Shown here piece after piece: positions 3,001 to 59,354 of a DNA stretch of 64,000 nt (its first letter is position 1; every line of letters starts with the position of its first letter). The DNA comes from Peribolospora baueri (taxonomy: Eukaryota; Basidiomycota; Peribolosporomycetes; Peribolosporales; Peribolosporaceae): contig JAMDHS010000013.1 of the NCBI GenBank assembly GCA_029717555.1, positions 270,868 to 334,867 on the forward strand, written 5' to 3'. The notes under the pieces were generated by a model. That model saw only the letters and a program-made list of their open reading frames with translations. It did not search any database and had not been told where the DNA came from. A program made the translations under genes and the position numbers.

Positions 3001-4097
3001 GGCGGCGGTGGAGGAGAAGAAGCCCCCGAGTCCGTTCAGCCTCTTGCCGTTGAACGTGATCGCTCATTTCGGCTTTATTGGGTTCATCTCGACCGTGTTC
3101 GATCAAGTGTTCATGTGAGTGCATGCGGTGTCGCCGAACTCGTGGTCAGACGGGGCTCGTCCTGACCCCCTCCCGTCCCGCGTTCGATCATTACGCGCTC
3201 GCGCAGGTCTTTCCTCGTCACCAACTATGCCGCTGGCGGATTGCAGCTCACGGCCGCACACTATGCCGAGCTCATCGCCGTGAGTAAACCCGGTGTGTGA
3301 AGAGCAGCGCTCAGTGCGGGAAGAAACTGATCCGATCCGACATTGCGTGCGTTCCCCTGCAGTGCATGGCCTTCGCGCAGATGTACTTCCAGTTCCGCTT
3401 CTATCCCAAGGTCGGCCCCCCTCAGGGCCCGTTGTCGCACTTGTCGATGTATCGCATTGGCCTGGCCGCGTACGTGCCTTGCTATCTCTTGTTCCCCTTC
3501 CTGCGCGCCTTCCTCCACCCGGTGAGTTTCGGTCGTTTGCGGGCTGCCTTCGACGTCATCGATGCTGAACGGCCTTTCATGTCCTTACGCCTCCCCGGCC
3601 ACGCAGCACACCGACTTCTTTGTCATGACGGCCATGATCTTCTTCACCGCGATCCGCTACTTCAGCAACGTCTGCGCCTTCACCGCCATCACCGTGCTCA
3701 TCAATGCTCAGACGCCACCGCATCTCATCCCTCTCGCCAACGGACTCGCTCAGACCGTCAGCTCGGCGGCGAGGTTCGTCGGCCCGATCCTGGGAGGAAT
3801 GGTGTGTTGGCATCCCCTTCCTGTTGTTGAAGTGGTGCACAAGCGCTGACGGTGACGGTGATTTGGCTTCTTTCTTTGCCTTGATAGGTTTGGGCATACA
3901 GTATCGAGGGTGGCCCGGACGGCAGACCGTTTCCGTTCAACTATTATCTAGGCTTCTACACGTGAGCGCTGACCGCCCTGTTCCTCGCCTTGTCCCTCTC
4001 GACGCGAAACCTAGACGCTCACGTCCCGCTCCTTTTCATACGCAGCGTCGCCCTGCTGTCCTTCATAGCGCTCGTACACAGCGTCGTGCTACGATGA
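22..4097 (+). CDS. MFS transporter with a large acidic cytosolic loop
   Basis: Ten exons can be joined: 22-723, 827-968, 1060-1324, 1395-1448, 1567-3114, 3207-3279, 3363-3521, 3607-3801, 3888-3961, 4046-4097 (1087 aa). Seen: a long hydrophilic N-terminus with a D/E run, then helices beginning PTLPLVVLC, a GEFCSAGVAGPF motif, and the MFS loop signature in WASVAEKHGRR followed by ARLAQGLFNGAVG. Exon 5 carries a loop of roughly 400 residues, rich in S, R, D and G, between the two six-helix halves. The second half (exons 6-10) is hydrophobic with VGPILGGM. This layout matches fungal major facilitator proteins related to yeast YCR023C and zinc-induced-facilitator types; the substrate cannot be read. 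The first ATG in the window is at 22 and another in frame lies at 70. The frame is open to the window edge, so the true start may lie upstream. Confidence 0.85.
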
Positions 4098-4964
4098 TGA
4101 TGACCTTTCCCTCGCCCAACTCGGCGTCCGTCTCTAGTCTCCTCGATCCACCGGAGTTTCTTCTTGAACACTTGTGTACCCCTCTTCCCCTGTACAATCG
4201 ATTCGTTATTTCTTATTTCTCCACCATCGCAGGTTCCGAATATCTGCATAGTAATGTGGCTTGGGGGAGAAAATAGCGCCGATGCGCCACGAGGCTATCG
4301 ACCCAGTAGGGTAGGGCCAAGGTCGGGCGGGACCCAGCTCGGAAGCCGACAATCGCACGACCGGGACCTGCTCGCAACAAGCGCCACCAGAGGGACGTCG
4401 TCCTTGACATGACATATATGTACAACGTAGCGGAGGTAGAGAAAAGGATTGGGCCGGAAGACGGATCTGTACGAGTGAAGAGGAAGTTGGGCGTCTTGAG
4501 TCTCACCCCGCCCATGTCTCGTGTCCTTTGGCCCTTGGCAACCCGGCTGCTCGGGACTTAAAGGCCCCATCGGCTTGTATCGATATGGGCTGTTCGGAAG
4601 TGCCCTTGTGCTCCACTCATCATCAACTCGGGTTTTTCGCCTGCTCCCCCCTCTCCCATGCCCTGCCTAATCATATTTTCTAGTCTTGCGACAGCTGCAG
4701 AAAATGACGCGCGAAATGTGACCTCCACTTGTAGCAAGATCGCAGCGCTGGGTGTACGAGGTGTAGAGAGAAGGGCCTGCAATGTGAGTAGATGGCGGCA
4801 AAGTGGCCCGGCCTCGTGTGGCGCTCCGGCCCACCGCCGACGTACTTTTTTTCTGACCTCTGGCTCATATTCTGTTGCGGACGACAGGCACCGACGGCTA
4901 CGTTCAAGGATTAAAGGATAGGAAACTCAACCGGACTGGCAAGCGGATCGAGTTAGCAAAGTGA
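4098..4964. other. Intergenic region after the MFS gene
   Basis: No gene is supported here. The stretch contains the MFS 3' region. I looked specifically for a Zn2Cys6 cluster (six spaced cysteines with basic residues) that could belong to the transcription-factor remnant downstream and found none on the plus strand. Confidence 0.5.
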
Positions 4965-18291: not shown

Positions 18292-21200
18292 TTAACGTTC
18301 TTCCCTCCCAACTGCATCGCCCGCGCCGACGACCTGCCTCGCACCCACACCCACACCGCCTCCGAGGCTCCTTCTCAACCACCGCGCCAACTCGGCGCCC
18401 CTTAGCCTCTCCGAGCCCGTCAAGCTGAACTGGAGCTTGACGTACTCGAGCGGCTCAGCACCCGCGGCGCCAGAGAGAGACGGAGAGGAGGATAGGTCGA
18501 GCGGCAGGTTGAGCCCGTTGAGGAGCGAGTCCAATTCCGGTCCGATCGCCGGTCCCCCACTCGTCGTCCCGGCACTGGGGTGCGCCGAGACGGAGGACGA
18601 CGACGACGATGGGCGGCGAGCGTCGGCGAGAAGGAGCGAGCGCAGAGGAGCGAGGCGGGGAAGACCGAAATTGAGCACATCGTTCTTGTTGGCGTTGGCC
18701 GGAGGCTTGCGCTCCGAGGAAGAAGCGGAAGAGAAAGGGTGCTGTCGGCTGGGGGAGAAGACGGGGATGCGCCCGGCGCCAGACCTCCCGTTCGCGTTGT
18801 CGTTCGTCGGGCCGTCGCCGCCAAAGTCGGCTTGCTGCTCCGGCTGGCGCTTCTGTGCGGGCAAGTGCGACGAAAAAGACGGAGCCCGCGAGGCAAAGTC
18901 GGAGGCGCGGACGGTGTCGTCCGAAGAAGCGGAGGAGGGTGACAGAGGCCCGGGAGAGGGAGACGGGGAAGGAGAGATGACCTTGTTCACAGCCAACGCC
19001 CCCTCCTCATCCTTCTTCTCGTCCCTCGTGGGCGCACAAGAAGGTGCAGCGGGTAGGAGGATGGTGAGCTTGGTCGCCTCAGGCGCCGCACACCTGTCCT
19101 GGTCTCTGTCTCCTCGGAGCCGCTGCCGAGACATGTCATCGTCGACGTCGACGTCCATCCTTTCTCCGTCCTTCTCCTCGCTCTGCCCGTCCGAACTGCG
19201 CCCCCTCTCCACGTCGTCGTCATCACCGAGGCTGCCACCGGCAAGCCCACCATCGAGCAACTCGACGACCGGCGGACCCGCAATGAACAACAAGGCCGCC
19301 GGCTGCGCGCCGTTCTCCTCTTCCCTCGACGAGCTGCCGCCGCTGCCGCCGACGGGCGCGGAGACGGGGCCGTCAATACTGAGCAGGCTCAGCCCGAGCT
19401 CGCGGCTCACGCGGTCCCAATCCACGGGCTCGAACGTGCGCGGGATGAGGTCCGTGTTCGTGCTCGGACGAGGCGCGTCCGTGTTGCTGTTGCGAGGGAC
19501 ATAGTATGCCACGGCCTTCCTCGTCTCAGGGGTGGAGCCCCCTGACGGCCTATTAGCTCCAGAAGGAGCGGACGAAGAGATGTTCGAAGCCGCAGCGGCG
19601 TCGGGCCAGTCGATGCTGCAGACGGGCAAGAGGTCAGCCACGTCACGAGGCACGTCGGTGATGGTGCACGAGGCAAGGGAGGCGGAGGTTTGGTCGCTGG
19701 ACACCGGAGAGATAGCGAGGTCGCGCTCATCGGAAAGGTGGGAGGTGGGGTGGAGCGAGGAAGGGTCGCCGGAGAAGGAAGAGGAGGCAGCACGGTCTCG
19801 CGAGCGAGAGCGGCGCAAGGTGGTCGAGGAGAGGACGCGACCGAGGGAGAAGGAGGAGCTGAAAAAAATAAAACAATGTAAAGCCAGTCATGTCAGATAT
19901 CTACTCAGAGCGACCAAAGCGTCCAAGCGCATACACGCGCTCTTGGACCGCTCCAAAACCCCGTCCACCCACCTTTCAGTCCCCCAATCAACTCTGGCAA
20001 CACCGTCGCTGCCACCGAGCCCTCCGGCCCCAGCGCGCTGCTGCTGATGTCCGCCAGGCAGTCCGAAGAGAGCGAAGCTAAACAAGATAACCATGAGCGC
20101 CACCCCGCCGGCACCCTTGCGAGCTGCCGCGCTCTCGGACTTTATCGTCGAGGTGCCGTCGCGGTGGTGGTGGGAGTGGTGGGAGGTGGAAGGAGAGGGG
20201 GAAGGGTAGGGAGAAGAGCCTAGGAAGGCGCTCTCCTCCGAGCTGCTCATCCCTCCGGCACCGAGGAAGGAAGGAGCCGAACGAGGCGAGGCGGATGAGG
20301 AGGGCATCGCTGCCGTCGCCGCCGAAGAGGAGGAATGGTCAGGGAAGAGCGATGCGAACACCCCCTTTCCGTTTTCCGCGTCGTCGACGAATGGAGAAGG
20401 CGGCGGGAAAGGGATTGAGACCATCGCATCCTCTGCGCCGGCTCGCATGCCGTCGGCGGGGCGACGGTGTTGCCCGTGCTGCTGTGAACGCGAGTGCGAG
20501 TGCGCGTAGCTTGGGGAGGTGCTGGAGGTTTCAACGCGAAGGTCGGGAGGCTGCGCGGCCTTGCCAGAGGACGAAGTCGTCGAAGCGGGCGGGGTAATGG
20601 AGCCTTCCTCCATTTTGACAGCTCCAGCCGGGGCTCCGGACCAAGCATAAGCGCCAGGCATGAAAGAAGTTTCAGAAGTGGCGCCAGTGTACGACGAAGA
20701 CTGACCTGAGGCCGAAGCCGGCGAAGAACGCTGGGAGCGCAGAGAGGCGAGCTCGACTTGCAAGGCAGCCTCTCGCTGCTTGATGGCGTGCAGCTCGGCA
20801 CGAAGCGACTCGATCTCGCGCATGTGGGCTTGGCGAGACGGGGAAGGGGAGGAAGACGTCGCTGTGAGCGAGTCCATCTTCTCTTTCTTCACGTTCGCCG
20901 TCGTCGCACCGGCCCCCTGCCTTCCCGCGTCAATCGCCTCGCGAACCAAAGACCTCGTTTCCTCCTCCTCCTTCTCCAACCACTTCTCCATCCCCTCGGA
21001 ACAAGCGTCGAACGCGGCCGCCCAAGCGCGATGGAAAGCCTTGACCCTGATCTCGAGCTCCTCGAACTGTTCCCTTTTACGTTGTCGACTGAGGAAGGCC
21101 GCCGCGCGGTTCTTCACCAGCCGAGCCTCGCGCTTGGTCAGACCGGAGACGTCCGGGGGAACGAAGAGAGAGCTGTGACGGGCAGAAGTGTCGATGACGG

Positions 21201-22209
21201 GGAGGCGATTGCCTGAAGAGGTGGAGTTGGTATTCGAGTTAGAGACGCCGGAGGAGGAGGCGGCAGACGGTGATGCGAACGACTCGTTGGCCGAACACGC
21301 CTCGACGGAAGCGCTCCCGTCGTACGATGGCACCGGCGTCATCGACGGCGCCTTGCGCTTGTTCGACTTTTTAGCGCTCTCGCCGCCCTTGTTGCCAGTG
21401 CCTTTGGGCGAAGCTTTCAAGTTAGGTCGACGGGACGAGGCCGCCGAATCTGTCTCCTCGGACTCGAGGCGCCTTCGCTTCTCCCGAGGGCTCTGGCTGC
21501 TGACGGAAGCAGAAGAGGTGGTGTCGTCAGTGAATGGCGAGGCGAGACGGCCGATGCGCGGTGCGGAGTCAGATGAGCCTTCGTCCTCATCGTCCTCATC
21601 GTCGTCGTCATCGTCCGCGGCTCCCCTGCGACTGGCATTGCCCGCACCGGCGCGGAAGGAGAAGATGGAGGAAGGTGCAGGAGCGATGTCGGCCATGCTA
21701 AGGGAGACGGGATCGCTCTCGCTGCCGTTCGCCGCGCCGCTCCAGGTAGGGTTGGAGGCGGAGGAGGATGAAGACCAAGGGACGGGTGCGATGGAAGGAT
21801 CGAGCTGGTGAGGCTCGACATGCTTCAAGCCCGCGCCCGACACGAGGTCCCACGGCGAAGGCGGAGGGTGGGCGAAGAGATGGGAGTCAGAGGCAGGGTC
21901 GAGGCGCATGTCGTCGTATCCCGTCTCCGCTTTCACAGCAGCGTGGGCGGTCCCGGACGTCGAGCCTGTGCTGGCCCAGTCGGGGCCGGAAGCAGAGCCG
22001 GGAGACGCATAGCTGATGGGGTCGTCATAAGCAAGGCTGAAATGGGTGGAGAAAGAGGAAGAGTCGAAGGATTGGGGTTGGTCGAGGAGGTCGTCGTTGA
22101 TGAAGGACTGAAAGCTGGAGTTGGCGTCGTTGGCGCTTGCGAGGCCGCCGGCGTTGAGCTGCGGTGTCGAAGGCCTGGGAGGGGCAGCACCGGGCTGGAA
22201 GGAGGCCAT
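18292..22209 (-). CDS. bZIP transcription factor with an internal transmembrane segment (ATF6/CREB3-like layout)
   Basis: Two minus-strand exons, 22209-19937 and 19858-18292, join in frame through donor GTGTAT and acceptor TTTTTTTCAG (1279 aa). Residues about 356-380 are a bZIP basic region, KREARLVKNRAAAFLSRQRK, with the N-x7-R core. The leucine-rich helix (IESLRAELHAIKQREAAL) starts only near residue 465, so basic region and zipper are about 85 residues apart. At about 700-718 is one hydrophobic helix, GGVALMVILFSFALFGL, followed by about 560 residues rich in S, P and D. The order (N-terminal acidic/serine-rich part, bZIP, membrane helix, large C-terminal domain) is that of animal ATF6 and CREB3, whose cytosolic half is released by proteolysis under ER stress. 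Function here is inferred from layout; no fungal orthologue is named with confidence. Confidence 0.8.
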
Positions 22210-23233: not shown

Positions 23234-25103
23234 ATGTCGTCGTCGCCCCTCTGGAGCACCTTTCTCGGTGACTCCTCCTCCGTCAGGACGGCGCGTGCCG
23301 CCGCTCTCGCGCTCAGCGTCACCACCACCCTCGCCGCGTGGCTGCTCTACCGTCAAAGCCAAATAGCTTTTGCGGATCAGAAGACGCAGAGGAAGAAAGC
23401 ACCGAGTCCAGCGGAGAGCGACAACGTCGAATCCCTCCGAGAGGCCTTGGACGCTCTCGAGGAGCAGGGGGAGAGGAATGCCTTGACGCTGGATAGGGAG
23501 AATGTGATGACGAGGAAGAAGGAGGTGGCCGACACAGGTCGGGTAGTTGGGCTGTTCTGGGATTACGATGTGCGAGACCCCCTCTTTTTCTTTTTCAGTC
23601 ACCACTTTCCTGTCCTGATTTTCTAACCTCTCGCAACTGCACGCAGAACTGCGCACCTCCGAAAGGCTCCACGGGCGGACAAGTGGTGGGCAAGCTCCGC
23701 CAGATGGCCCAGAGCTACGGTACCATCTCTACCATGAAGGCTTACCTCGACATCAACCTCATGGAACAAGGCAAGGATGGCGGCTTGCCCCAGGAGAAGC
23801 TCCTTTCCCAGTTGGCTGACTCGGGCGTCAGTCTGGTCTTTACGCCCAAAAGTGGCCGCAAGAACGTGGCCGATCAGAGAGTGCGCCTGTCGACGACCTT
23901 TCTGTGCCCGAGAACGCCTGCCTCACTCCTTCCTTGCTCTTCCTCCTTTCCTCGACACAGATGATCACCGATCTGATGGCCTTTGCAATCGACAACCCCG
24001 CCCCAGCCACGCTCGTAGTCGTCTCCGGCGACCGCGACTTTTCCTATACCCTCGGCACGCTCCGAAACCGACGGTACGAAATCGTCCTCGTGCTGCCGCC
24101 GGTCGGCGCTAACGTTAACGTCAAGCAGCAAGCCAACAAAGTACTCATGTGGCGTGCAGATGTTCTCGGCATCAGCGGCGGCATCGGCACCCACGCCTTG
24201 GAGGAAGAGGCCCCGGCTTTGGCCAACAGCGACATGGCACCAAGCACAAGTTCGTTGGCGTCTCCCAAGAAGAGAGAAAACGCCCCTGAGACGCAAGACA
24301 CGAGGGCCGATCATAAAACTAAGTTCTTTCCCGACGCAGTGTCACCCGCTTCACCCAGCACCCGCACACCAGACGTCTTCGCGCCACTTATCGAAACCCT
24401 AAACGAATATTCAAAACGCGGTATCACCCGCGCTTTCCGTAAACCCATGCTCGCCCAACTCGCGAAGCGCTATCCGTTCGCTGCCTCCTCAACGGGCCTG
24501 GGCAAGAACGATTGGATGGGCTACCTGGCTTTGGCGGAGAGCATCGGTATCATCCAGCAAGGGTCCATGCCGGAAAAGCCAGGATCCGAATGGGTATGGT
24601 TCTCCGACGAGCGACATCATCGACAGCAGCAACAGCTGCCGCTGCAGCAATCTCCGCTGCCGCAATGGCATCAACAGAAGAAGAGCGTGCAGACGAGCGA
24701 TCCCGTCACTAAGCCCTCTGGCACCGGCGGAAGCTCCACCCCTTCGACGCCCTTTTCTTCTCCAATTAAGCGCGGCTCCGACCCGACTGTCCCCGACAAC
24801 CTTCCTTTCGAGCTTCAACCTTTCCTGCCCCTCCTCTCCATCCTAGAGGCCCGCCGTCTCGTGGGCGATATTCGCCCGCTTTGCTCCTATGTCGGCGCGC
24901 AGCTCGGACAGCTCTCCCTCGCCAAAAGCGGGAACCGCAAAGACGTGTACGCCCAAGCGCACACGGACGGGTGGAAGAAATATGCGGAGATCGCCCAGGC
25001 GGAGGGTCTGGTTAAGATCGTCGAGACGGACAAGGAGGGCATATTGGCCGTCAGGTTGAAGAGGAAGTGGGTCGGCGTCGTTCAACCTGCAAATATTGTG
25101 TGA
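23234..25103 (+). CDS. NYN-domain (PIN-like ribonuclease) protein with N-terminal membrane anchor
   Basis: Three exons: 23234-23569, 23647-23880, 23961-25103 (570 aa), all joined in phase 0. Residues about 20-40 form a hydrophobic helix (ALALSVTTTLAAWLLY) followed by Gln/Lys/Arg-rich sequence, so the bulk probably faces the cytosol from an organelle membrane. The NYN fold is read from VGLFWDYDN (Asp110/Asp112/Asn113 across the first splice), then VVVSGDRDFSYTLGTLR with Asp214 and Asp216, and YEIVLVLP. These acidic residues are those expected of the metal site in the MARF1/limkain-b1 and LabA-type NYN nucleases. The C-terminal half contains two helical, winged-helix-like segments (around KRYPFAASSTGLGKNDWMGY and GWKKYAEIAQAEGLVKIV) separated by a Gln/Ser/Pro linker, possibly OST-HTH-like. 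RNA cleavage is inferred. Confidence 0.8.
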
Positions 25104-33725: not shown

Positions 33726-36695
33726 TCAATCCTTGGACCTCAAACCGGCCAAGATCTCCTTGAGCCTCTCATACTCCGGCTCGTCCTCGAAAGAGTCCTT
33801 GGTCCGGCCCAAGAAGGCGCGTACGATGCTCCTCGCCTGGAACTTCCAGTCCTTCAACGCCGGCTCTGTCCGCCCTTCGCCCTGTCCTCCCTCTCCCGCG
33901 GACACCGCCACCTCCCTGGGCCCGAGGTTCTCCAAATACTCCGCCATCTCCTCCACCTCCTGTGCCGCCTTTCTGAACTTCTCTACACTCGTTTCCGCCC
34001 CTCCCGCGTCATCCGAGCCCGCTCCACACCGGAACGCCTTCAGGTACGCGTCAATCGCCCCGCGGTAATCGCCCCGCCACAGAAGAAGGCGGGCGTAGGC
34101 GCGAAAGGTGCGAGGAGAGGAGGCGATGCGGGGTAGGATGGCCGTCGTGAACAGGCGCTCCACGCGCGGATACAGACCGTGCCCTTCGTTCGGGTTGTGC
34201 TCCACCTTGGTCGCCGTCTCGCCCGCGAGCGCGGACGGCTCTTGCACGGCATCTTCCTCCCTCGACGGAGCCCGAGTGACGGCGTCGACCAACCTTTCCA
34301 GAACATCTTCGTCCACGGCCTTTTCGCCTATCTTGGGCGCCAGAATGTCCACGAGCCTTGCCATGGCCCGACACGCCTCGGAGAGCTCGCCCACGTCGAC
34401 AGCGACAATCATATAGTTGGTCCAGATGCGCCAGCTCTCCTGACTGTGTCGGATGCCTTGGCGGAGCGCGTTGAAGGCGTCGCGCTTTCGAGCGTAGGGC
34501 ACCCCCGAGGCGGTAGGACGCGTCGAGAGCGCACCGTGGCTGAGCGACACGGCTGCCTGCTCTTCATCGTCCTCGTCAAGGGCAGGATCATGAACAGACT
34601 GGACTTTGTCCGCACCTTCCTCCCCCATGCGCAAATACACGCTCGCGAGGTTGTTCCAGCTCTCGCCGTCCTCGTCGTCCAAGGCGACGCACCTCCCGAA
34701 CGCTGTTGCCGCTTCCTCCCAGTCCTCTGCGCGCATCGCCGCGCAGCCGAGGACGAACCATGAGCGCGTGTAGAGCGGGTTGATGGATAACGCCGTCTTG
34801 AGCGGTTCAATAGACTCCGCAAACTCGCCTCGAGCATAGTGGTATCCGCCCAGAGAGCGCATGGCACGAGAGCTCTGATGATGAGACACCTCCCATGCCG
34901 TATGGTAGTGCTTTGGCTCCTTCTCGAGATCACCCAACAGACACCACAGCTTGGCCTTTCTGCCGTCGCTCATCCTGGCCTTGCTCCTCTCCTCTGGAGC
35001 GCGCGCCCCCGTCCTGGACTCCGCGATGCGCACTTCCACCTCCTTCCTCCTCCCTTCGAGCAAATCCCTGACGACCTCGACGCCTTTATCTTCCCTCTCT
35101 AGCAACTGCCAACACGCCACCACGTCTTCCCACATCTCCAGGCGCTCGAAGATCTCCAGCGCCGAGCGCACGACCCCGATGCTGAGGTATCGCTTGGCGA
35201 GTTCGTGCTGCATCTCCCACCTCGACGGCAGTGGCATCGAATGGAAGTATCGCAGTCGCTCCTGAAGCGTCGAGTCTGTCGTCGGCATCTGGTCGATGAG
35301 CGCCTGCAGCTGCAACGCCGAGCGCTCGACGGTGCGAGAGCGGTTGGACTCGAGTCGAGAGCGGAGGAGAAGTGCCATCGTGTGCACAGACCAGTTCATC
35401 GGGTTCTCTAGGACACGAGCCACAAACGCCATCATCTGCTCCGACGTCAGGCCATGTGAGGGGTTCATGTTGCGGATGTTGAGGCAGAGCGCAAGGAGGA
35501 CGCATTGGTCAAGCGGATGTAACTTGGGTTGGGAGCCCGGCTGGATGTGCGAGAGCTTGCCATGCGAAGACTCCGGTTTAGAGGTGGTCGTGTACTTGGT
35601 ATGTTCCAGGAGCGTATCGTCGTTGAGACTGAGCGTCGTAGGCACCGCCGCGGCTCCTGTCTCTCCCTCCTTTTGACCAACTACCGTATCTGGAGAATCT
35701 TGCTTCTCTTTTCCTTCCGACCGTCGCACCACGTTCTCCTTGGCCCCTTCGTCTTGATCATTCCTCTCTTCCCGCTCCCTACTTTCCGCAAGCAGGACGA
35801 GCTGGCTCAGGTCCTTGCTTTGGAACTTGGTCTTCCTCCCCAGTGCGCCCGTAAGCACGTACTCCAAGCCACTCTGCCGCGCCGCTTCAACAAACAGATC
35901 CGCCGCTTCCCGGTCCTGACCGAAGTGGTGAGGCACGAGTCCTCGTTCGAGGGTGAGCCGAGCGTGAAGATCTGATCGCCAGGATGGAGGGAATGCAGAA
36001 ATGTCGGAAGAGGAAGAGGACGAGTCGTAGGCAAGGGAGGAGAGGAGCTTCTGCACGCGAGAAAGAACGTCTTCGGGAACGGGAACGGGCTCGTCAAGAA
36101 GATGCTGATGTACCATTGCGGCTCGAAGTCGCCACCAGTGAATAGACTCTAGTCGCTGGAAGGGTAGAGCAAAGACGAGTTGGGCAAGGACAAGGAAGGA
36201 GGGGTGTTTGGGAAGGTGGTATGCGGGCTCACCGCCGTATTGCAGACGGCCGAGCGCGGAGGCGTGCACATCATCTTCGGACGTCGAACTCGACGACGAC
36301 GGGAGATTCAACACGGCGAGCGGTGTGACGTCGAGATCAGGGCCGGTCCAGTTGGCTTGAACGAAGGCGTGCAGGGCGGCGACGCCGACGGCGAGCATGA
36401 TCAGCTCGTTTTCGTCGTCGGAGACGAAGCGGGTAGACTCCCGGACGACAGAGAGGTTTTCAAAATCGAACACTGAAGACGATGGATCGCGACTGGTCTC
36501 AGGAAAAGACGCGGAGAAAAGCTCCTTCGCCCACCTCGAGGTCAGCGCTTCAGAAAGGTCTCCGTGGACGACCTGTCGAGCAAGTTGGACGGCTGGAGAC
36601 TGCGCTGCGTCCTTGTCGTCCACGTCGCCATGCAGGATCCAAGTACCCTCTATCAAACACCATTGTGCCTCGTTCGGCGAGGCTGAGGAGGCCAT
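33726..36695 (-). CDS. EMW1: TPR protein Emw1 / TTC27 homologue
   Basis: A single minus-strand exon of 989 aa, the only long intron-free gene apart from the last ORF. It starts MASSASPNEAQWCLIEGTWI; the W-C-L-I-E-G-T-W opening is characteristic of this family. The frame stays open upstream to 36971 but has no conserved residues there, so I chose the ATG at 36695. The centre and C-terminus contain TPR units, for example SWFVLGCAAMRAEDWEEAAT and SWNNLASVYLRMGE. The family is eukaryote-wide: human TTC27, yeast Emw1 (YNL313C). The yeast protein is essential and linked to cell-wall integrity; TTC27 has been tied to protein assembly and splicing factors. Low-complexity serine and glutamate linkers are inserted between helices. 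Confidence 0.9.
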   Translation of the reverse strand: MASSASPNEAQWCLIEGTWILHGDVDDKDAAQSPAVQLARQVVHGDLSEALTSRWAKELFSASFPETSRDPSSSVFDFENLSVVRESTRFVSDDENELIMLAVGVAALHAFVQANWTGPDLDVTPLAVLNLPSSSSSTSEDDVHASALGRLQYGGEPAYHLPKHPSFLVLAQLVFALPFQRLESIHWWRLRAAMVHQHLLDEPVPVPEDVLSRVQKLLSSLAYDSSSSSSDISAFPPSWRSDLHARLTLERGLVPHHFGQDREAADLFVEAARQSGLEYVLTGALGRKTKFQSKDLSQLVLLAESREREERNDQDEGAKENVVRRSEGKEKQDSPDTVVGQKEGETGAAAVPTTLSLNDDTLLEHTKYTTTSKPESSHGKLSHIQPGSQPKLHPLDQCVLLALCLNIRNMNPSHGLTSEQMMAFVARVLENPMNWSVHTMALLLRSRLESNRSRTVERSALQLQALIDQMPTTDSTLQERLRYFHSMPLPSRWEMQHELAKRYLSIGVVRSALEIFERLEMWEDVVACWQLLEREDKGVEVVRDLLEGRRKEVEVRIAESRTGARAPEERSKARMSDGRKAKLWCLLGDLEKEPKHYHTAWEVSHHQSSRAMRSLGGYHYARGEFAESIEPLKTALSINPLYTRSWFVLGCAAMRAEDWEEAATAFGRCVALDDEDGESWNNLASVYLRMGEEGADKVQSVHDPALDEDDEEQAAVSLSHGALSTRPTASGVPYARKRDAFNALRQGIRHSQESWRIWTNYMIVAVDVGELSEACRAMARLVDILAPKIGEKAVDEDVLERLVDAVTRAPSREEDAVQEPSALAGETATKVEHNPNEGHGLYPRVERLFTTAILPRIASSPRTFRAYARLLLWRGDYRGAIDAYLKAFRCGAGSDDAGGAETSVEKFRKAAQEVEEMAEYLENLGPREVAVSAGEGGQGEGRTEPALKDWKFQARSIVRAFLGRTKDSFEDEPEYERLKEILAGLRSKD

Positions 36696-36950
36696 AATGG
36701 ACGGCGGAAAACGAGGGCTGAGTATGTACAAGAGGGAAGCAACTCTTCTCTTTCCAAGCCAATCCTTCCCGCGTCGCGTTGCACTTCGGCCTTGCCGCAG
36801 CACAATTATCAGTATAAAGCTGCGGTATGCGCGTAATTCCCACGCTGCGACCGCTTTCTGGCGAAGGGAATTTTCACTCCTTACAAATGTCTTGGTCGAG
36901 CCATCACCATCCACGAACTCCAACCTCAACAACGACCACCCGCCGTCAAA
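36696..36950. promoter_or_regulatory. Divergent promoter EMW1/RPL8
   Basis: 255 bases between the EMW1 and RPL8 start codons. The RPL8 side ends with CA-rich leader sequence (ccatcaccatccacgaactc) typical of fungal ribosomal protein genes. I did not find an obvious Rap1-type site. Confidence 0.5.
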
Positions 36951-38142
36951 ATGGTAGGTTCTGTCGGGCAAAAGAAGGAAGAAGGCAGATGCCAGACGTA
37001 CTATGATGAAGATAAGGATTGCTGTCGACTCACGTCGCTACACATCGTTGCATCTTCTGTCTGTGCTCTCCTACTCCCTCCCGCCCATCTTCGCCTCGCG
37101 CCCCCTGCCGGCTTTCCGTCTTCTTCTCCTCGGCCCCCATAGCCCAAGGCCAAGTCCGGTTCCAGCAAGAAGCCCGCGCCCGCCCCCTACTCCAAGGGCA
37201 AGGCTGCGCCCAAGACGCCTAAGAACCCTCTCTTCGAGGCCAAGCCCCGCAGCTTCAGCGTCGGTGAGTATCGTCACTGGTGTTGCGCAACAAGTTAAAG
37301 ATGGAGCGAGTTTGGAGTAATGTTGCATGCTAACTCGCTGAACGTACACCCTCTTAGGCCAGGACCTCCAGCCCGCTCGTGACCTGACCCGCTTCGTCAA
37401 GTGGCCGGAGTACGTTCGCCTCCAGCGCGCTCGGGTGATCATCAACCAGCGCCTCAAGGTCCCTCCCCCGATCGCCCAGTTCTCCCACACCCTTGACAAG
37501 AACACGGCCACTCAGCTTTTCCGTCTCGTTAACAAGTACCGCCCTGAGTCGAAGCAGGAGAAGAAGGAGCGTCTGGCCAAGCAGGCTCAGGAGGTGGCCG
37601 ATGGCAAGAAGGAGGACCCGAAGAAGGATGGCAAGAAGCCCCTCTTCGTCAAGTCCGGCCTTAACCACGTCGTCGCCCTCGTCGAGGCCAAGAAGGCCAA
37701 CCTCGTCGTCATCGCCGACGACGTCGACCCCATCGAGCTCGTCATTGCTCTCCCCGCCCTTTGCCGCAAGATGGGCGTGCCCTACTGCATCGTCAAAGGC
37801 AAGGCTCGTCTCGGCGCTGTCGTCCACCGCAAGACCTCGTCCTGCCTTGCTGTCCAGGACGTGCGTTCCGAGGACCAGAAGGAGCTTTCTACCCTCGTCT
37901 CTGCTGTCAAGGCAAACTACAACGACAAGTACGAGGAGCACCGCCGCCACTGGGGTGGTGGTGTCCGTGGGCAGAAGAGCCAGCGTAAGTTTTCACTCTC
38001 CCTGGATGAATTGAGGAAAATGTACGGACCAGACCGAGAATTGCTGACCTTTGTCCTCTATTTCCCTGGCTTCTGTTCTGCAGAGATGCTCCGCAAGAGG
38101 GCGAAGGCTACCGGTCAAGCTCTCAAGGATGTCGCGCTCTGA
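36951..38142 (+). CDS. RPL8: 60S ribosomal protein eL8 (L7a)
   Basis: Four exons: 36951-36953, 37143-37263, 37358-37984, 38084-38142 (269 aa). Exon 1 is just the start codon ATG, followed at once by GTAGGT; the reading frame resumes with [20 protein letters not shown]. The eL8 signature is plain: [44 protein letters not shown] and the L7Ae RNA-binding core [13 protein letters not shown] with [20 protein letters not shown]. It is a structural protein of the large ribosomal subunit and binds rRNA near the L7Ae kink-turn. Length is close to yeast Rpl8 (256 aa). An intron at or next to the start codon is common in fungal ribosomal protein genes. It means the true start is easily missed by frame-based prediction, which would pick an internal ATG. 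Confidence 0.97.
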
Positions 38143-42120: not shown

Positions 42121-42949
42121 TGAGGCTAGATTGGCTCTGCCTCATGGCCCGCGCGCTCACTGCCGGTCTCGTTCCCGTCGTCATCATCTCTCACTCGTTT
42201 TCAGCCCTTACGCCTCTTTCCCTAGTCCTTATGCCCTTTTTACCGGTGTCCATGACACATGCACAGTGCCCAGAAGTGGACGACCGATATGCTCAGTGTT
42301 TCCACCGTGTCGTTCGATGAAATTCATGTGTACCGATGTTTGTGCGAATAGTTTACACGAGTGCGTAAATGTTCTGCGCGCTATGGCTTTTGCGACTTAG
42401 AAATATGTCCCGCATCCTGTAAGCACGACGAGAGCGTCTAAATCAGAAGTGTGCCAGAAGGAATGAGGCTGGACAGCTGCAGGGCCTTCAAATCGAAGTC
42501 AGGTCGAAGACGAGAACTCATCCGCCTGCAGAGGGTCAGCTTGAAAGCCACAACAAGATTGCGGACATACTTAACCGGAAAAGTCAGGATATGATACTGT
42601 GGAGCAGACGATGGATATCGAGGAAGAATTCAAGACGTCTGCGATCCCTTTGCGTATCGTCATAGTTGTCCAGATCCGGCGCCGCCTTTCGGAAGAACTC
42701 CTTTTCGAGGATCCGCTTCGCGGATGCGCCGCTCCTTTCTCGTCGCTCCCCGCAGCTCTGGTGTGTGTCTCCTGTCTCCTCATCGCTCCAAAACGGCTTC
42801 CCATGGTCGGGCCGTGGGTCTGCGTTGCTTCTCATCCTGTCTAAATAAACATGGCGTGGTCTGAGTGGGACTGGCTATAGCTCTGCGTCTTGTCCGATCA
42901 CGCACACATCGCCGCCTGTAGCCGCGTTCGTGCGACGTCGAGTCGACAG
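42121..42949. other. Intergenic region between the BTB pseudogene and nucleotidyltransferase gene
   Basis: About 830 bases. A minus-strand ATG-led frame at 42835-42584 encodes 83 aa with coding-like character (KRILEKEFFRKAAPDLDNY, then RRRLEFFLDIHRLL). It could be a small gene or a fragment, but I do not recognise it. The rest shows nothing. Confidence 0.35.
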
Positions 42950-45900
42950 ATGACCAGCATCACGTTTGGTTCTTCCTCCCACAATTTCACCCTTCCCAAC
43001 GTTCCCAACCCTGCGACCTGGGCCCCCAAAATTGTCGCAAGCAAGCTGTCGTTCCCTCTTCTCCCTCAAGGGAGCGCGGCTGCGCTCGGCTGGTGGCAAT
43101 CTTCAACTGTGCTTCGTGCGATCGCTCCCCATCTTACCTCTCTCTCCACGTCCACCACAGCCGGCGCAGTTAGGAGGATCGTCTCTACCACCGCAGGCCG
43201 TTACCAACGTCGACGCAGGATGTCTATCCAAACACCCGCGGTCCCTTTTGGACATTTACATGCCCCTGGCCAGCAAGACTTTGTCGACTTTAATGATGCA
43301 GCGGACACCTCCGCCGACTTGGGCCAACCTGGTCCTTCGTCTTCGCCTCCTGGGCAGAAATCGTCTGCCGATCGCCGCCGAAACTCCATAGGTTCCAAAA
43401 GGCAGGGAGCTGCGTCTTCTCCAGTATTGCGCTCACGGAGGTTGGTCAGTAATCATACGCCACCTTCTCGACTATCGTCCGCTCGGCCCTCTGTCGGCTC
43501 CTTTCCCCCCATGACCCGCTCGCGCGTATTCGTCAAAGGCGTCCACCCTGGCGTCTTCTCGGGAGATTCCCTCTGGAACGCTCTCACTCAGTCTTTTGGA
43601 CGCGTGACCGACTACGACGTCCAGTACGCAAAAGGCGTCGCTTACGTAGAATTCGACTCCGTTGAAGCGGCGTCCAAAGCTGTCGCTGCTGGGAATCTGC
43701 GGGTGGGGAATGGCAAGTATGTTGGGATCGAGGAGATAAAGTCCAAGGAAAGGCTTCGTCAAGAGGCGCAAGCGACCGCTACGAGGCAATGGAGGCACGA
43801 AAGGAAAGGGCCAGTACCTCATGTTTTAGGGCCGAGCAAGGGGAGCCTAGCTTCTCTTGAGCGGCACACGGCGAAGTCCGGCGGAGGTCTTGATCCGGCG
43901 CTGAGAGGGACGGCAGGCTCGTATCATCCAAGGTCGGAAGGACTTGCGAGGCGAAGCCATGGTCGGGAGCGTCTCCGTGGGTTTGCCGGTGCGGATGATT
44001 TGGGAGCGCCTGTGCGTCGTGACGCAGAGAATGAGCCTTCCGCAAAATGGGAGGATAAAGCGCAGGCCCTTTCCGATCCGGCGGACGAGGATAGGCTGTA
44101 CAGGAGTTCCGGCTCAGCGTTCGGGTGTCAATTGCGGAAGTTGTCCGAGGTGAACAAATACGTTGCGCTCGTCAGAGGAATCTCAAGGATATTCCTCCCT
44201 TTTATTCCGTCCTCTGACGTTCCTCTGTCATGTTTCTGTACGTCATGTTTCCCTGCACAGATATCAGCACCCACTCAACGCGCCCTCGCTATCCGGCACG
44301 ACGTCACCATGCTCGTGCAGAGTCTCCTTCGGCGTCGTTGGGGTGGCGTCCGAGTCGCCGCCTTCGGCTCCTCCGCCACTGGGCTCACTTCCAATTCTTC
44401 CGACCTCGACTTGGTCCTCCTCGACCCTCGTCGCCCTGGCGGCTCTGCCGCTCCTGTTCCAGACCAAACAAAAAGACTTTTAGATGGCGAGAACCCTCCG
44501 ATGCGGTACGAGCGAGAGGTGGAGCTCCCGAGCTTTTACAACGTGAGAGCCGTCGCAAGGATCCTTCAGAGCAGCGGCATGTTCAGCGACGTTGATCCGA
44601 TCGCCCATGCTAACGTGCCTATTGGTGAGCGCCATGGTCTCCCTGCTTGTGTGTGTCTTCCTTTCAGACTCGCAGCTGATCTCTGCACCTATACACGTGC
44701 CATTCTATCCCCGCATGAAACTTTGCTTTCAGTGAAATTTGTCCATCGATCATCTGGGCTGCCGGGAGACATCAACATCAACGATCGCTTCGGCCTCCAT
44801 AATAGCACGCTCATCCGCACTTATTGCGATCTACGCAAGAACCTGGTCCGTCCCCTCATCACGTTCGTCAAAGTTTGGGCGAAACGGAGAGGGCTGAATG
44901 ATCCTAGTGTCGCGTCTCGGACTCCGTCGTTCTCAAGCTACACTTTGACGCTGATGTGAGTGCTTGCTTTGTTGGATCCGATGTGACGACCATTGGTGTA
45001 ATTGGCCCAAATTTTGGAACTCGTCTCTCCCGACAGGGTCATCCACTACCTCCAACACGTCAAGCTCCTGCCAAACCTCCAATCCCCCTCGCTTCTTAAC
45101 GAGCATCGCATCGAACCCCACTACGTCTGGCAACAAATTCGCAGCAGGCGTCCGCGACAAAGCCGAAAGCGGGCTTTGTCGTCACCTCGAACCGTTCACG
45201 ACGTTTCCTTCATACCCCAGCCCATCGCCTCTGCGAACCTGCCCTCTCCGGCCCCGTCGTTTCCGACCAAAGGGGTTGAGGCATTAGAGCGGATGGCTCG
45301 TGGGTTCTTCGAGTACTATCTCCAGTTCGACACTGTGAATTGGGCCATCAGTATTAAGGAAGATGGCGAGGGTGGCATGTTGAAGAGGGATGTCCCGTAC
45401 AGCGGCGACAAGGGAAGTGGGGCGGTGGGAGCCAGCGATGTGGATGAAGCTCAGGCGGAATTGGTTAGAACGGAGGAGGCTCCCCTAGTGGCCGACATCG
45501 CCTCCAAACCCGTCGCTGGCGGCGAGTTGCTGGCGGAGGAAGGCAAAGAGGATGCCGACGTGGTCGCAGAGGATCCCGTCGTGGCTACCGTCGATCAACA
45601 ACCCTCGGCCGGTCTAACCTCCGTTCCAGCCACGGAAGACTACATACCCCCAACCGTACCTACGCGCGACGGTGTGCCGACGAAGCAACCAAAGGAGTGG
45701 AGTACTCATCCTCTCGTGGTACAGGATCCTTTTCTCACCGAGCGCAACACGGCCAGGAATGTCAGGGACGTCGTGGTGGAGGTGTTTTTTGAGGTGAGGG
45801 ACCGATTTTGGAACGCTCCAATCCATTATCATGTTTGAAGACGCGATGCATCGTCCTGACCACATTTATCCCATCTGCCTCCTGCCCCTTCCGCTTTGCT

Positions 45901-52766: not shown

Positions 52767-55700
52767 TCATCGCCAGCCGATACCCCTATGCTTTCCCTCC
52801 ATCTCCACCTCGTCCAGCATTCTCCCCGCCTGCACGCCCACCATCCCGCCTTGGTCTCCGAACCCTCGTTCCAGCTCGCGCTTCGCCTCGCGGAGCATCT
52901 CTCGCGCCAGCCGGAGCCTCTCGGTGCTGCCGACGGGCGGCAGAGAGGGCGCGTTGGGAAAGCTGAGCGCGCTCGACTTTTCGTCGTCATCATCGTCCCG
53001 CGCTCGTTGCGCTCGACGACCCGAGTCGTCTCCGCTCGCGCCGGAGACGTCGAATTCGACGAGCAAGAGTTTGGCCAACGTGGCCATCTGGACGCCTCTA
53101 GCGGGGTGTCCCTCGGGAAAGACGGGGCCGTCGACGGCCGCTTGCGCTTCGCGTCGCGTGTGCTCGGCCGCGCTCGCTGTCATGCCTTGCAACGCCAACG
53201 TCCCCGCTTGAGCGGCGAGGTCGAAGAGCTCCTGGGCGTACTTCTGCGCTCTGCGAACCTCTGCCGTGATGCTCTCGCCTGGCGGGGGCAGGGAGGGGTC
53301 GAAATAGGCGCCGGCGCCGGTGCCAGGCGGCGGAGGGGGCAAGGAAGCGGAGGCGAGGGAGATGAGGACGGTCTGAGCGAGGCGAAGGAGTGGGAGAAGA
53401 GGGTAGGAGGAGGGGGAGAGGAGGGGAAGGAGGGCGAGAAGAGACGGCTGCAAAATACTGTACGCGCGCTCGTATTCTAAATTGCCGGTCACGAACGGCG
53501 GAAAAGGAGAGGAGAGAAAAAGGATTCAGCACGACGACGGACGGGCCGCTGAGCTGGACCGCTGGATGTCCACCGGCTCACCTTCACGCGCGACGGCAGC
53601 CTCCGCATCTGAGAGGGCCCGAACGCCTCCATCGACGGCTCGTCGTAGGGCAGGGACGTCCGTGGAGAAGCTGGCCCCACAACGCGCGCAAGATCGAGGA
53701 ATGGTCGCGTCTATGGACAAATCTGTCCATGTGCAGCATGGATGACGAAAAAAGAACAAAAAAACAAAAAACAAAAAAAACGCGAGGATGGATGGGATGC
53801 GCAGCCGAAACGTCAGCGGATGGACGATATGAGGATGAAGAATGCATTAAACAAGGTCAGCGTCGAGCTGCGGGACGAGTTGCGACTCACCGGGCATCTT
53901 GGCCCATCCTCCGCATCCCTGAGGACACCGAAACGTCTCCCTAGGGTCGATCCAATCCTGGCCCAACATGAAAACGGAGCGAGAGCCGCCGACGTCGCGG
54001 CTCAACGAGGCCGAGCCGGTGCCGTCTCCTCCTCTCGGCGTAGGTTCGTTCGGCGCAGGTTCGTTCGAGGCTACCAGTCGCGCTGTCCGCACACCGCTTG
54101 GGGAGGAGGGTGCGCCAGCAGCAGACGGTCGAGAAGGAGACGGAGCCATCGCCGTCGCCGTCGCCGCAGGCCGCTCTCTTAAGAGAGCGCTCGCGGAAGG
54201 AAGGAAGGCTCGACTGGCGGCGCAGAGGGTGCAATCGCAGACGAAGAAGTAGCGGTCTTGGAGGGCTTTGTGACGGAAGGGGTAAGGGTCGGAGAGATCT
54301 AGGTAAGAGGTGAGGATCTGGGACGAAGGACGAGAGATGCGGGGAGGAAGGAGACGAAGACGGACGTCAGGGCGCGGCACATCGGCATTAGAAAGAAGTG
54401 AACACGCACCTCCTCTCCAACCTGGACGTCCCTGATAGCGATGACGGCCATCTGCCCCGCCACGCTCCCCCCTGGCCGGGCACCGAGCCAGGGGAAGACG
54501 ACGACGGCGTTGGGGAGACAGGAGTGGTTGAAGAGCGCGGCCGTCGAGCTCATTGCGACGCCGATGGGCGAAAGATCGGGCGCGGATAGGGTGAAGGTGT
54601 TGGTTTGGAACTGAGTGGAGGATGGGAGAGAGGAGGTGAGCGGCAAGGCTTGACTGTCAAGACCCTGCGACCGACCGGCGACTCACCCTCGAACACATAT
54701 CCAACACCTCTGCGGCGCTATCGAAGCCAAAGTCTGCGAACGAGCGGCTAGAGCCATGTTGGCCGCCGTCAAGGACGCCGAGGAAATCGGCGAGCCGCAT
54801 GCTGAGGTTGCCTAACGGTTCTTTCTGCGTAGCCGTGAGGGAGGCGCGATCTGAAGGAAGGGAGAGGAGGAAGAGATGGGCTTCAGGGTGAGTGAAGCGG
54901 TGACGCACAACGAACGACGTCTGCTCACGGGATTGCATGCGCTCCATGTCTCGCCACTGCTCGGGCATAAAGAGAAGGAACGGCACGGCAGGGCGTCAAT
55001 GGGCCTCTCCGTGTCCCTCCCACGGTCGTCCAAGCGACGGGCGCACTCACGGCCTCCATTTCGACCCTCCCCTCACCGTCCACGACTCTTCCCGTGCTCG
55101 TCCTCCTTCCCCACACGACCCTAGCCAAAGCCCGAACGGCGTCTCCAGGGTCTCCTTTCCTCCTGAGCGCCTCGCACTCGTGTTTGTGGCGAGGCCAATC
55201 TCGCTTCTGGCATTTGGGACCGCAATAGTGGACGAGCTTGCACGCTGCGCAGCGGAGGAGGGTCGTCGGTAGGGGAGGGAGGGCGGAGACGGAGGAGCTG
55301 GGGGACGGGGCCGGGGAGGGTTCAGTGGACGAAGGCTCGGAGAAGCAGTGGGAGCAGCGGAGGGGTAGGGCGGAGGAGGAGAGGACGGAGAGGGAAGGCG
55401 TGAGGCGGAGGAGGCCGGTGCCTGTCGAGAGAAAGGATAAAAGAGAGGGCGATGAGCGGGAAGAGAGTGAGTTGGAAGAGCGGGTAGAGAAAAAGAGCAC
55501 GAAAGCAGCCCACCGGGTGTGAGCGCTTTGCCATCCCTGGGCTCCCAGAACACGCCTCTGCCCTTGCCGTCGACGTGGCGAACGACGAGGGAATGGTTCT
55601 CCTCCAACACCTCTCCTGTGCTCGCTTCCCTGATTCGTCGGGATGCGGACGAGTCGGTGACGGCGGTCACCGGCGTCGGAGCGGTGAGCTCGCCTTGATC

Positions 55701-56138
55701 GACGTCCATGCCGACGACGAGCGCTGCGTTCGACTGGCTCTGACTCTCGTCTACGCTCATCGCCGGCGGCGGAGGGAGAGGGCGCTCCAACGCAGGCCTC
55801 TCCAGGCCATCCTCGTCGCCTCCCCCTCCGACGAGCGCACCGCCGCCGCCGCTCTCGTCGGCGGCCTCTTGCTCCCTCCGCTCTCTCCTCCTCGCTTCCA
55901 CCTCTTCCCGCATGAGCTTGGCGGCGGCTGCGAGTCGGGTGGCCGACGCGGCGTCCGGCGGTTGACCAGGTTCGGGCTGCTGCAGGACCTGAGCTTGGAC
56001 CTGATGCGGCGGCAGAGGCGTCGAAAAGCCGATGACGGCCGCCCCCGCCCCCGCCCCCGTCGCCGTCCCCGTGCGGTGCCGGCGGTCTTGCTGTTGCTCG
56101 CGCGAAGCTCGGTCGGCCTTGAGCTTTGCGAAGGACAT
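52767..56138 (-). CDS. SET and MYND domain lysine methyltransferase (SMYD family)
   Basis: Seven minus-strand exons: 56138-55514, 55421-55051, 54956-54687, 54610-54410, 54317-53891, 53722-53582, 53476-52767 (914 aa). The SET N-terminal part includes HSLVVRHVDGKGRGVFWEP. The MYND zinc finger, inserted into SET as in all SMYDs, reads CSHC ... CAACKLVHYCGPKCQKRDW, PRHKHEC. SET resumes in exon 4 with FNHSCLPNAVVVF, the cofactor- and substrate-site motif, then ILTSYLDLSDPYPFRHKALQ and the post-SET cysteines in YFFVCDCTLC. Unusually, an additional pair of CxxC-like clusters follows (CPQGCGGW and CARCGASF). The C-terminal helices (exon 7) resemble the TPR-like domain of SMYD2/3. The family methylates histones or other proteins; which target is not readable. 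The first 200 residues are charged, low-complexity sequence. Confidence 0.88.
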
Positions 56139-56802
56139 GGGTGCGCGCGCGTGGTGGACGCGGAGCGGGGCGGACGAAGGAGATGGGCGAAGGGAGTGTG
56201 CGAATGAGAGTGAAGGAAGGAGAAGAACGAGAGCGGCGGGGTCGAAACGGCTAGCAAGCTAGCCAGCGATCTGGCTGGCTTCGCCGGGGTTGGGTTCATA
56301 AATTTCTCGATCACTCGCACCTCACGTGGTGCGTCACGGACCGATATCGACGTTTCATAGCGCGACGGAAGGAAGTTGTTCGCAGTTGGCAGGCTTAATG
56401 AAGCGATTGTGACCAAGAGAACAAGGTATCGACCGGCTTTCACGCAATTTGATTCCACCACCGAAACCAGGGAGAGCGAGAGAGCGAGTGGCGCTCCTTA
56501 TATAGAGCGCATCTGATCCTCATCCTTTTCCTTCCCATTGTTCCCACGCTCATGCACGTGCATACCGCTGCGGCAACAAGCAAGGGTGGCTTATTTAACG
56601 GTCCCTTTCTTCTAACGTAAGTGCGTTCGTTTGCGTGACAGGGCCGCCTTTTTCATCGACTGCAAAGGAAAGAGAGAGGGAGGGCGTTTTGACGGACGTC
56701 TCTCAGGACGACGGACGAGTTGCCCGTGGTCGAGGTACTAGGCATTGCGGCGTCCGGACCGGAGTTCGTTTAGTTGGGACTCGGCTCGCTGATCGTCTCA
56801 TC

Positions 56803-57189: not shown

Positions 57190-59354
57190 TTCCGAAGACG
57201 GATGGTCGTGTATGCAAGGCAGCGGGGGGGAAAACACACACAAGCTCAGTCGAGTCGAGTCGGCCTTGCGGTCGACATCGTGGGAGCGAACCAGACGTGC
57301 CGGGCCGTCGCCAGCGGAGCGAACGCCGCTCGGAACCGGATCTCTGCTCGCCTCGCTTTTTTCCTTTTCCTTCATCTCTCGCCTCGCCTCGCTTCGCCCG
57401 CGACGGCTCACTGCACTGCACTGCTACCTCGCTTGGGACGTTGGAAGACGGGCGCGGGCGCGGGGTGGATGGGATTGATGGGATGCGATAGCGATCCGAT
57501 GGCGCGTCGGCTCGGAGAGAACCGGAGGGCGCTGGATGGGATGGGATGGGATGGCTTGGCGGACGAGGACGAGGAGTGGACACGGGGCGGGGGTACCTGT
57601 CAAAGAGGAGTGTCAATCAGTCGATCTGCCTGTCTGGTCTGCGTTTGCTTGCAAGAAAACAGATCGGAGGTGGAAGCGGATCAGTCTGTCAAACGGCGAG
57701 GCAGGTAAGCGACGGCGGCGAGGGACACGTGCGCAGGTCAATAAAGGAGATGAAGAGCGATAGGGAGCGTCCGGGCGACTAGCACGGTTGCTGACGGGCG
57801 ACTCGATGGCGGTGACCATCAGCACGTGGACGGGACGAGGTGGGCGAGATGAGATACGTGGTGTCGCATCGTATGTCCAGTGCTGGCAGTCGGCAAGCAC
57901 GGGTGGCCCGTGCCCACGCGAACGAACGCGTGGACGGGGCCCGATCAATGGATCCCGAATCTCGCCGAGTGCGCAGCCGGGTCGAGGCTAGAGGCTGTGT
58001 GGAAGGGAAGGGTGTTTCGCGGCGGTCGACGTGGACGAAGAAAGAAAACAAATGGAGATGGACGAATGCGGGCCGGTTATCAGCGCGATCAGGGTTCCGT
58101 CGTTGCTGATCAGCGGGCCAGCCAGCCAGCCGGGTCCGTCTCCGTCGCCGTCCTCCCTTTCCACCTGAGCGACTTTTGCGGGGTCGATGGATGAGCAAAC
58201 GGGCGCAAAAGGCGTTTTTGTTTCTTTGCATCGCATTCTAGTCGACCGCCGCCGATCTATGTCAACTAATCGGGTCGAGTCGGGCCCACTTGGGACGGGC
58301 TAGCGTCGGCAAGGGCGGGTGGCGTCGCGGTGGGGATGGAGGCAAGCAAGGTTTGGCGAGCTAGACGACGGATGACGGTGGTTGGCGTGTCTTTCTGTTG
58401 TTGTATGTGGTCGAGCATGACAAGACAACAACAATATAACATTGGATTGCCGATCTGGTATGATTCCCCTGCGCATGAGGACGAGTGTCTATCCCTCTTA
58501 TGCCGCTGCCGACCACGCCCTCCGACCGGTCCGCCGTCCGACCCGCCTCGACCCGACGGCCACCCGTGGCTGAGGAAAAAGAAAAAAAAACTTTTTCCGG
58601 TCGAAGGGAAAGATAAGGAAGCGTTTTCAGGTCCAGTCGGGGGTGCGAGAGAAGAGCAAAGAGAAGGCTGAGAGAAAGAAGACGAACGAAAGTAAAGAAA
58701 GAAAGAAAGACAAAAAAAGAGACAGCGACGAACGCCGGATGACGACCTTCCGGGCAGGAATCTCATCTCCCTTATCGGTTGCCGCCGTCCATCATCATCC
58801 ATCATCGTCCATCGTCCATCATCCTTCGTCCGTTGTCGTCGTCGCCGTCGTCGTACATCGTCGTCCTCATCCATCCTCGTCGACCTCGCTCGCCATCCTT
58901 CCTCCGACATCCCTCCGCCTTCCCTCCGACGACCACCGGCCCCCTTCTCCCACCCCTCCTCGCTCGCACGCCATACCCCCCGCCCCGGCTCTTCCGTCCC
59001 CCTTCCCTTCTTTTTCCGTTTGCATCCTTCCCGATCCTCTCCGGTAAGCACCCAGCCATCTCTGCACCCACAGATACCCACAGATACGCATTGCATCTCA
59101 GCACCACTCCGCCCGCTCGCTTGCTTACCTCCCCCTCCTTCGTCCCCTCCAGCCTTCCTTCTTTCTCGTCCGCGGCCCGCGTCTGCCGTCATCCAAGTCA
59201 CTCGCCTTTTCCCTCCCTCCTTCCTTCTCTGGCCTTATTTCCTTCCCTCTATCTGGCCAGCCTCCCACCCTTCGCCACTCGTTCGTTCGTCGAGTGGACG
59301 CACGTTCGTCATCCGCCGTATAACAACACCACCACCATCCTCACCTGGCTCGCC

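Follow-up and report, generated by a model that had tools for sequence, protein, structure and literature searches.

A putative membrane-tethered bZIP transcription factor with an ATF6/CREB3-like order in the basidiomycete Peribolospora baueri

We describe a gene of the basidiomycete Peribolospora baueri whose product combines a bZIP DNA-binding region, a single hydrophobic segment and a long C-terminal tail, and which may encode a membrane-held transcription factor. It lies in a stretch of 64,000 nucleotides (the window: contig C44, bases 270868-334867; the genome has 22.1 Mb in 178 contigs). Our preferred reading, to which we assign a probability of roughly 0.4, is that of an N-cytosolic, membrane-tethered bZIP protein that acts beside the IRE1-Hac1 branch and is freed by site-2 protease (S2P)-type cleavage after a first cut; membrane tethering as such, summed over this reading and a second one with a different mode of release, is somewhat favoured. 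The transcription factor would be held at an internal membrane via one helix near the middle of the protein, with the N-terminal 700 residues (the DNA-binding region, helices and clusters resembling nuclear localisation signals) facing the cytosol, and the tail after the hydrophobic segment, 549 residues in length, in the lumen. In response to a signal, the tail would undergo a first cut, or be lost, through the action of some protease; intramembrane cleavage, most likely by the site-2 protease of the genome, would then follow, and the freed N-terminal part would pass to the nucleus. We infer membrane insertion, topology, cleavage, protease identity and signal alike, and ER stress is one guess at the signal, made by analogy.

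The gene is carried on the minus strand, with its ATG at 22209 and its stop codon at 18292, and codes for a product of 1267 aa in two exons (Table 1). The splice signals read AAAG/GTGGGT...CTGAC...TTTTTTTCAG/CTCC, with the donor at 19972 and the CTGAC ahead of a T-rich CAG acceptor. We scored codon usage against a table built from 5366 codons in seven further long stop-to-stop frames of the window, three of which lack a Pfam match. Exon 1 reached 0.31 bits per codon in the claimed frame, the other sense frames gave -0.15 and -0.10, and the best antisense frame 0.07; the corresponding values for exon 2 were 0.28, then -0.10 and -0.11, and 0.14. Taken by segment, residues 1-250, 250-500, 500-745, 747-979 and 980-1267 gave 0.20-0.38 in frame, whereas neither of the remaining sense frames exceeded 0.01; the intron scored negative in all three sense frames. 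The two-exon gene is real, and codon usage backs both exons in the claimed frames. That the two open frames are instead separate genes, so that the bZIP and the tail would not belong to one protein, is highly improbable: retention of the intron would bring a stop after 27 residues, but exon 2 is coding-like from the acceptor on (0.40 bits per codon for residues 747-860, right after the junction), its first Met is residue 980, so that an ATG start there would leave 233 coding-like codons unused, and good splice signals join both frames.

Other frames of the window include an adjoining, divergently oriented one with an NYN-domain match (23820-25100, + strand; E 2.2e-9), one with a poly(A) polymerase-like palm domain and an RRM match (42881-44956, + strand), a TPR-repeat frame (33729-37037, - strand), a MYND-finger frame (54928-56250, - strand) and an open frame of 1728 codons with no Pfam match at E 0.01 (58743-63926, + strand).

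Table 1. Features of the gene and its predicted product, in window coordinates.
Feature	Residues	Position	Strand	Basis or remark
Exon 1	1-745 and part of 746	19973..22209	-	Open reading frame and coding bias
Intron		19859..19972	-	114 nt, GT-AG, CTGAC branch-like site, phase 2; not coding-like
Exon 2	rest of 746 to 1267, stop	18292..19858	-	Open reading frame and coding bias
Possible NLS, basic clusters EKRRR and KKSNKRK	241-290	21340..21489	-	Reading of the sequence
bZIP basic region and zipper start	358-393	21031..21138	-	Pfam bZIP_1, E 1.3e-6
bZIP long helix (modelled)	359-433	20911..21135	-	AlphaFold2 single sequence, block pLDDT about 88-93 except ends
Second helix (modelled), coiled-coil-like by eye	457-494	20728..20841	-	AlphaFold2 single sequence, core pLDDT 89-93
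Hydrophobic segment, putative transmembrane helix	699-718	20056..20115	-	Hydropathy and shuffles; modelled helix
GRVL, proposed site-1 protease motif	752-755	19831..19842	-	Chance level
Short strand-helix element (modelled)	1218-1243	18367..18444	-	Only tail part with block pLDDT about 70

The DNA-binding region is recognised by the bZIP_1 profile of Pfam-A at 28.8 bits, just above the cut-off of 27.6, over profile positions 4-39 of 64 only; the bZIP_2 match stayed below its cut-off, and the Pfam search of the protein recovered a bZIP and no HLH. With the register taken from CREB and extended by heptads, the d positions of the zipper are Leu385, Phe392, Ala399, Gly406 and Lys413, and the leucine zipper is therefore degenerate after its first position. 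In an AlphaFold2 model built from the single sequence, residues 340-745 (mean pLDDT 56.7) contain a further helix, at 441-451, between the two of Table 1, with disorder after the last; Foldseek returned no match for this model, and a PDB sequence search with the bZIP region reached CREB at E 0.01. The two basic clusters upstream are possible nuclear localisation signals. Matches to Mito_fiss_reg (E 0.0077) and Mis12 (E 0.34), both below the Pfam cut-off, were discounted as products of coiled-coil or low-complexity sequence.

A search of the organism's own genome with the residues around the bZIP gave the gene itself and one match at E 0.158. When ten basic-region segments were compared, most of the reference sequences having been typed in rather than taken from a database, Arabidopsis bZIP28 scored highest at 97, with human ATF6 at 75 and CREB1 at 71; three of the seven other bZIPs of the genome scored 35-52, one of them being truncated. 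As the references were mostly typed in and the region is a single short one, the likeness to bZIP28 is a lead rather than a test of descent.

The hydrophobic segment stands alone within an otherwise polar sequence. Over residues 699-717 its 19-residue Kyte-Doolittle mean is 2.18, a value reached in 7 of 2000 shuffles, and its best 15-mer (703-717) attains 2.72, reached in 3 of 5000; AlphaFold2 in single-sequence mode models a helix at 698-715 with block pLDDT of 62-69. For comparison, the most hydrophobic segment at the IRE1 locus, which is presumably the membrane helix of IRE1, has 2.72 over 19 residues. Among 16 other bZIP or bHLH open frames of the genome, which are partial, stop-to-stop frames, 14 peak below 1.6. 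Both exceptions look untranslated: one (L021, peak 1.92) lies before the first Met preceding its bZIP, and the other (L039, peak 2.62) lies in an intron-like stretch and stops just short of its bHLH. In the 20-residue flanks of residues 702-718 the net charge is +2 N-terminally and 0 C-terminally, which weakly favours the N-cytosolic orientation. The hydrophobic core is short and is flanked by GG and GLP, and with approximate Hessa-scale values it sums to only -0.35 over 19 residues and -1.20 over 17. The helix-breaking motifs reported for substrates of the site-1 protease (S1P) and S2P are NP, NxxP, PxxP and GxxN (PMC9237531); by eye, none of these occurs in the segment. Taken together, we regard residues 699-718 as a putative transmembrane helix. 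Several claims of the initial annotation are borne out up to this point: a two-exon gene for a single protein, with splice signals that join the frames and codon bias that fits both exons; a bZIP basic region at about 356-380, now matched by Pfam, together with the start of the zipper, at 358-393; and one strongly hydrophobic helix at about 700-718, which agrees with the measured segment, its rarity among shuffles and its modelled helix.

The main alternative is a soluble nuclear bZIP protein, in which the hydrophobic segment would be an interaction motif or an accident within a long disordered region. We consider this possible but not probable. Residues 721-1267, with abundant Ser, Ala, Gly, Leu, Pro, Arg and Asp, form a low-complexity tail with acidic and Ser-rich blocks, which resembles many nuclear regulators; the segment is short, and by a weaker measure, runs of at least 19 residues free of DEKRNQHP were reached in 290 of 5000 shuffles. 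Two scans of viral contigs and one of prokaryotic contigs yielded no relative that might show conservation, a result with no bearing on rarity. Against solubility stand the chance rarity of the 15-mer and the low peaks of the other bZIP and bHLH frames, with the limits on those partial frames and their two exceptions given above.

The tail itself has four Cys and one sequon, versus 2.9 sequons expected, which together with the lack of a confident fold sets it apart from a typical lumenal domain. The single-sequence model of exon 2 has a mean pLDDT of 40.1 (such models are weak evidence), and searches of PDB sequences and Pfam with exon 2, up to E 10, came back empty. As modelled, it is a long tail with no recognisable folded lumenal domain, and the large C-terminal domain of about 560 residues first proposed is not confirmed. 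The GRVL sequence fares no better as an S1P site. It had been put about 45 residues after the helix and lies 34 residues after it; an RxL within the first 60 tail residues is present in 34% of shuffles, and the tail has six RxL sites, GRVL among them, where 4.15 are expected. The S1P consensus is Rx[LIT][KL] according to PMC9237531; GRVL does not fit this stricter form, whose one match, at 1152, is far from the helix. Beside the helix we thus found no site-1 motif better than chance.

We searched the genome for the machinery that would release such a factor. The site-2 protease is represented by one M50 match above the cut-off (PF02163). At its locus (L024, G000:C146:52000-60000), HEAGH and NLLPAWRLDG occur in forward frames at 2088 and 3809, 1.7 kb apart and with no common transcript implied, in a genome where no SREBP was recognised among nine bHLH matches. 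The subtilisin family (S8) gave six matches at four loci; one piece of each, compared with the PDB, pointed to kexin, tripeptidyl-peptidase 2, generic subtilisins and keratinase/proteinase K (the last from the best 60 of 150 PDB matches). No site-1 protease was among the matches listed for these four loci, in a comparison that carried no positive control, and PF23090 had no match either in this genome or in any control genome. Of the S1P/S2P release put forward in the initial annotation, the S2P part therefore has its match in the genome, and the S1P part is left with neither a recognised enzyme at the four S8 loci nor a motif above chance level.

The genome also has signal peptide peptidase (five exon matches at one locus) and a Dsc3_C match (28 of 145 positions, E 3.1e-7). 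These would serve a tethered protein released by means other than S2P: through signal peptide peptidase, a Dsc ligase with a rhomboid protease, or proteasomal processing. Spt23 and Mga2 are released by proteasomal processing. Fission yeast Sre1 is reported to use Dsc and Rbd2; the same source also describes Phaffia signal peptide peptidase as having no role in Sre1 activation (PMC13026331), which speaks against that enzyme, and we consider release without S2P unlikely.

S2P-type release is favoured because the enzyme is present, no SREBP was recognised, and S2P loss is reported to bring gene changes independent of Sre1. In two other basidiomycetes, Cryptococcus and Phaffia, loss of S2P is reported to have Sre1-independent effects, gene changes included, and in Phaffia DTT sensitivity is higher in the triple mutant cyp61 sre1 stp1 than in cyp61 or cyp61 sre1; the authors call their observations exploratory and raise membrane-bound factors yet to be identified as a possibility (PMC12732919). 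Since these effects have no known second substrate, a tethered bZIP protein is a testable candidate class. The tethered reading is plausible on account of a 15-mer that is rare by chance, isolated and modelled as a helix, of the S2P motifs and of the bZIP28-like basic region; against it are the weak Hessa sum, the short core, the helix-breaking motifs missing from it by eye, the single sequon, the want of a confident tail fold and that of a candidate protease for the first cut.

The absences of SREBP and of the site-1 protease are both results of exon-by-exon searches. The SREBP bHLH carries a characteristic tyrosine, which was found in none of nine HLH matches in the genome; an SREBP-like query recovered three of these nine and nothing further, and DUF2014 had no match, a search that was uncontrolled, as PF09427 matched in no control genome. 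These searches suggest that the genome lacks SREBP.

The IRE1 branch, for its part, appears to be present. RNase exons of IRE1 were found, and there are seven further bZIP loci, by eye of Atf1/Sko1, Hac1/XBP1, Gcn4, Yap-like (three) and Met4-like types. The Hac1/XBP1-like bZIP (L018, G000:C107:103000-109500, at about 3240-4466) has a coding bias that shifts between frames: at about 3240-3660 two frames show bias, and afterwards mainly the second, whose translation has acidic blocks. No GT-AG intron candidate of fitting length was found there, and its best CNG site pairs had weak stems; IRE1 splicing would explain the change of frame, making this a candidate IRE1-spliced mRNA. A scan for paired CNG/CNG stem-loops in the window gene gave one site with a stem of at least 4 pairs and no partner; the scan has little power, as at a threshold of at least 3 pairs it found none in the C107 Hac1 candidate. 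We set aside the idea that the window gene is itself a Hac1 homologue with an IRE1 intron, given its GT-AG signals and the better candidate on C107. The first suggestion, a pathway "beside or instead of Hac1", thereby narrows to its first half: with IRE1 RNase exons and a distinct, by-eye Hac1/XBP1-looking bZIP present, "instead" is unlikely, and the window gene would act beside IRE1-Hac1.

Accounts of the unfolded protein response in fungi usually comprise IRE1-Hac1 alone, and a tethered bZIP would, if true, add an ATF6-like arm. The wider proposal that basidiomycetes of this lineage have an S1P-free, S2P-dependent membrane bZIP pathway parallel to IRE1-Hac1, supplying the missing non-SREBP substrate of S2P, is speculative and rather unlikely as a whole. 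Were it to hold, this bZIP class would perhaps be the main S2P substrate here, as no SREBP was recognised. A tethered fungal bZIP would offer a concrete candidate behind the Sre1-independent S2P effects reported for Cryptococcus and Phaffia (PMC12732919), and would bear on the question of an ancestral or a convergent origin of the animal and plant designs. No membrane-anchored fungal bZIP was described in the literature searched, which covered titles and the starts of abstracts, with most subscription journals outside its range.

Among known systems, a fungal NDT80-type family of membrane-bound candidates likewise joins a DNA-binding domain to a transmembrane segment; its DNA-binding domain is different, and in the sections of the source drawn on here bZIP is discussed only for vertebrate ATF6 and CREB3L (PMC13294678). 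The fungal SREBP/Sre1 system with S2P/Stp1 shares with our tethered reading a membrane-held transcription factor and an S2P in the genome, but the window protein is a bZIP rather than a bHLH protein and carries a single predicted helix, as against two in SREBPs. Fungal Hac1/Hxl1 and XBP1 are bZIP proteins like that of the window, and OASIS-ATF6, HAC1 and plant proto-B bZIPs cluster together according to Jindrich and Degnan (PMC4736632). The C107 bZIP nonetheless looks more like Hac1/XBP1, and the window gene's intron has GT-AG signals.

Further parallels are the animal and plant tethered factors. The ATF6/CREB3-like order noted at the outset, a bZIP followed by a single hydrophobic segment and a long tail, is indeed present in the sequence, and animal ATF6 and CREB3 (OASIS), which are released by S1P and S2P, have the same order of bZIP, single helix and C-terminal tail. 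Their basic regions share 15 of 33 (ATF6) and 12 of 31 (CREB3) identities with the window protein, both sequences being among those typed in; unlike them, it has no recognisable lumenal domain, and Leu occupies only the first zipper d position. Unlike the plant bZIP17/bZIP28 system, the genome has no recognised site-1 protease, and no Pfam family matches the tail of the window protein, which also lacks the RRIL that serves bZIP17/28/49 as site-1 site. The basic region of plant bZIP28, likewise typed in, has 20 of 35 identities with that of the window protein, the most among the ten compared. In plant bZIP17 and bZIP28, as in the window protein with its putative helix, the bZIP is N-terminal to one helix and the tail exceeds 300 residues; for plant bZIP28, cleavage by S2P in the absence of S1P has been reported, which sets a precedent (PMC9237531).
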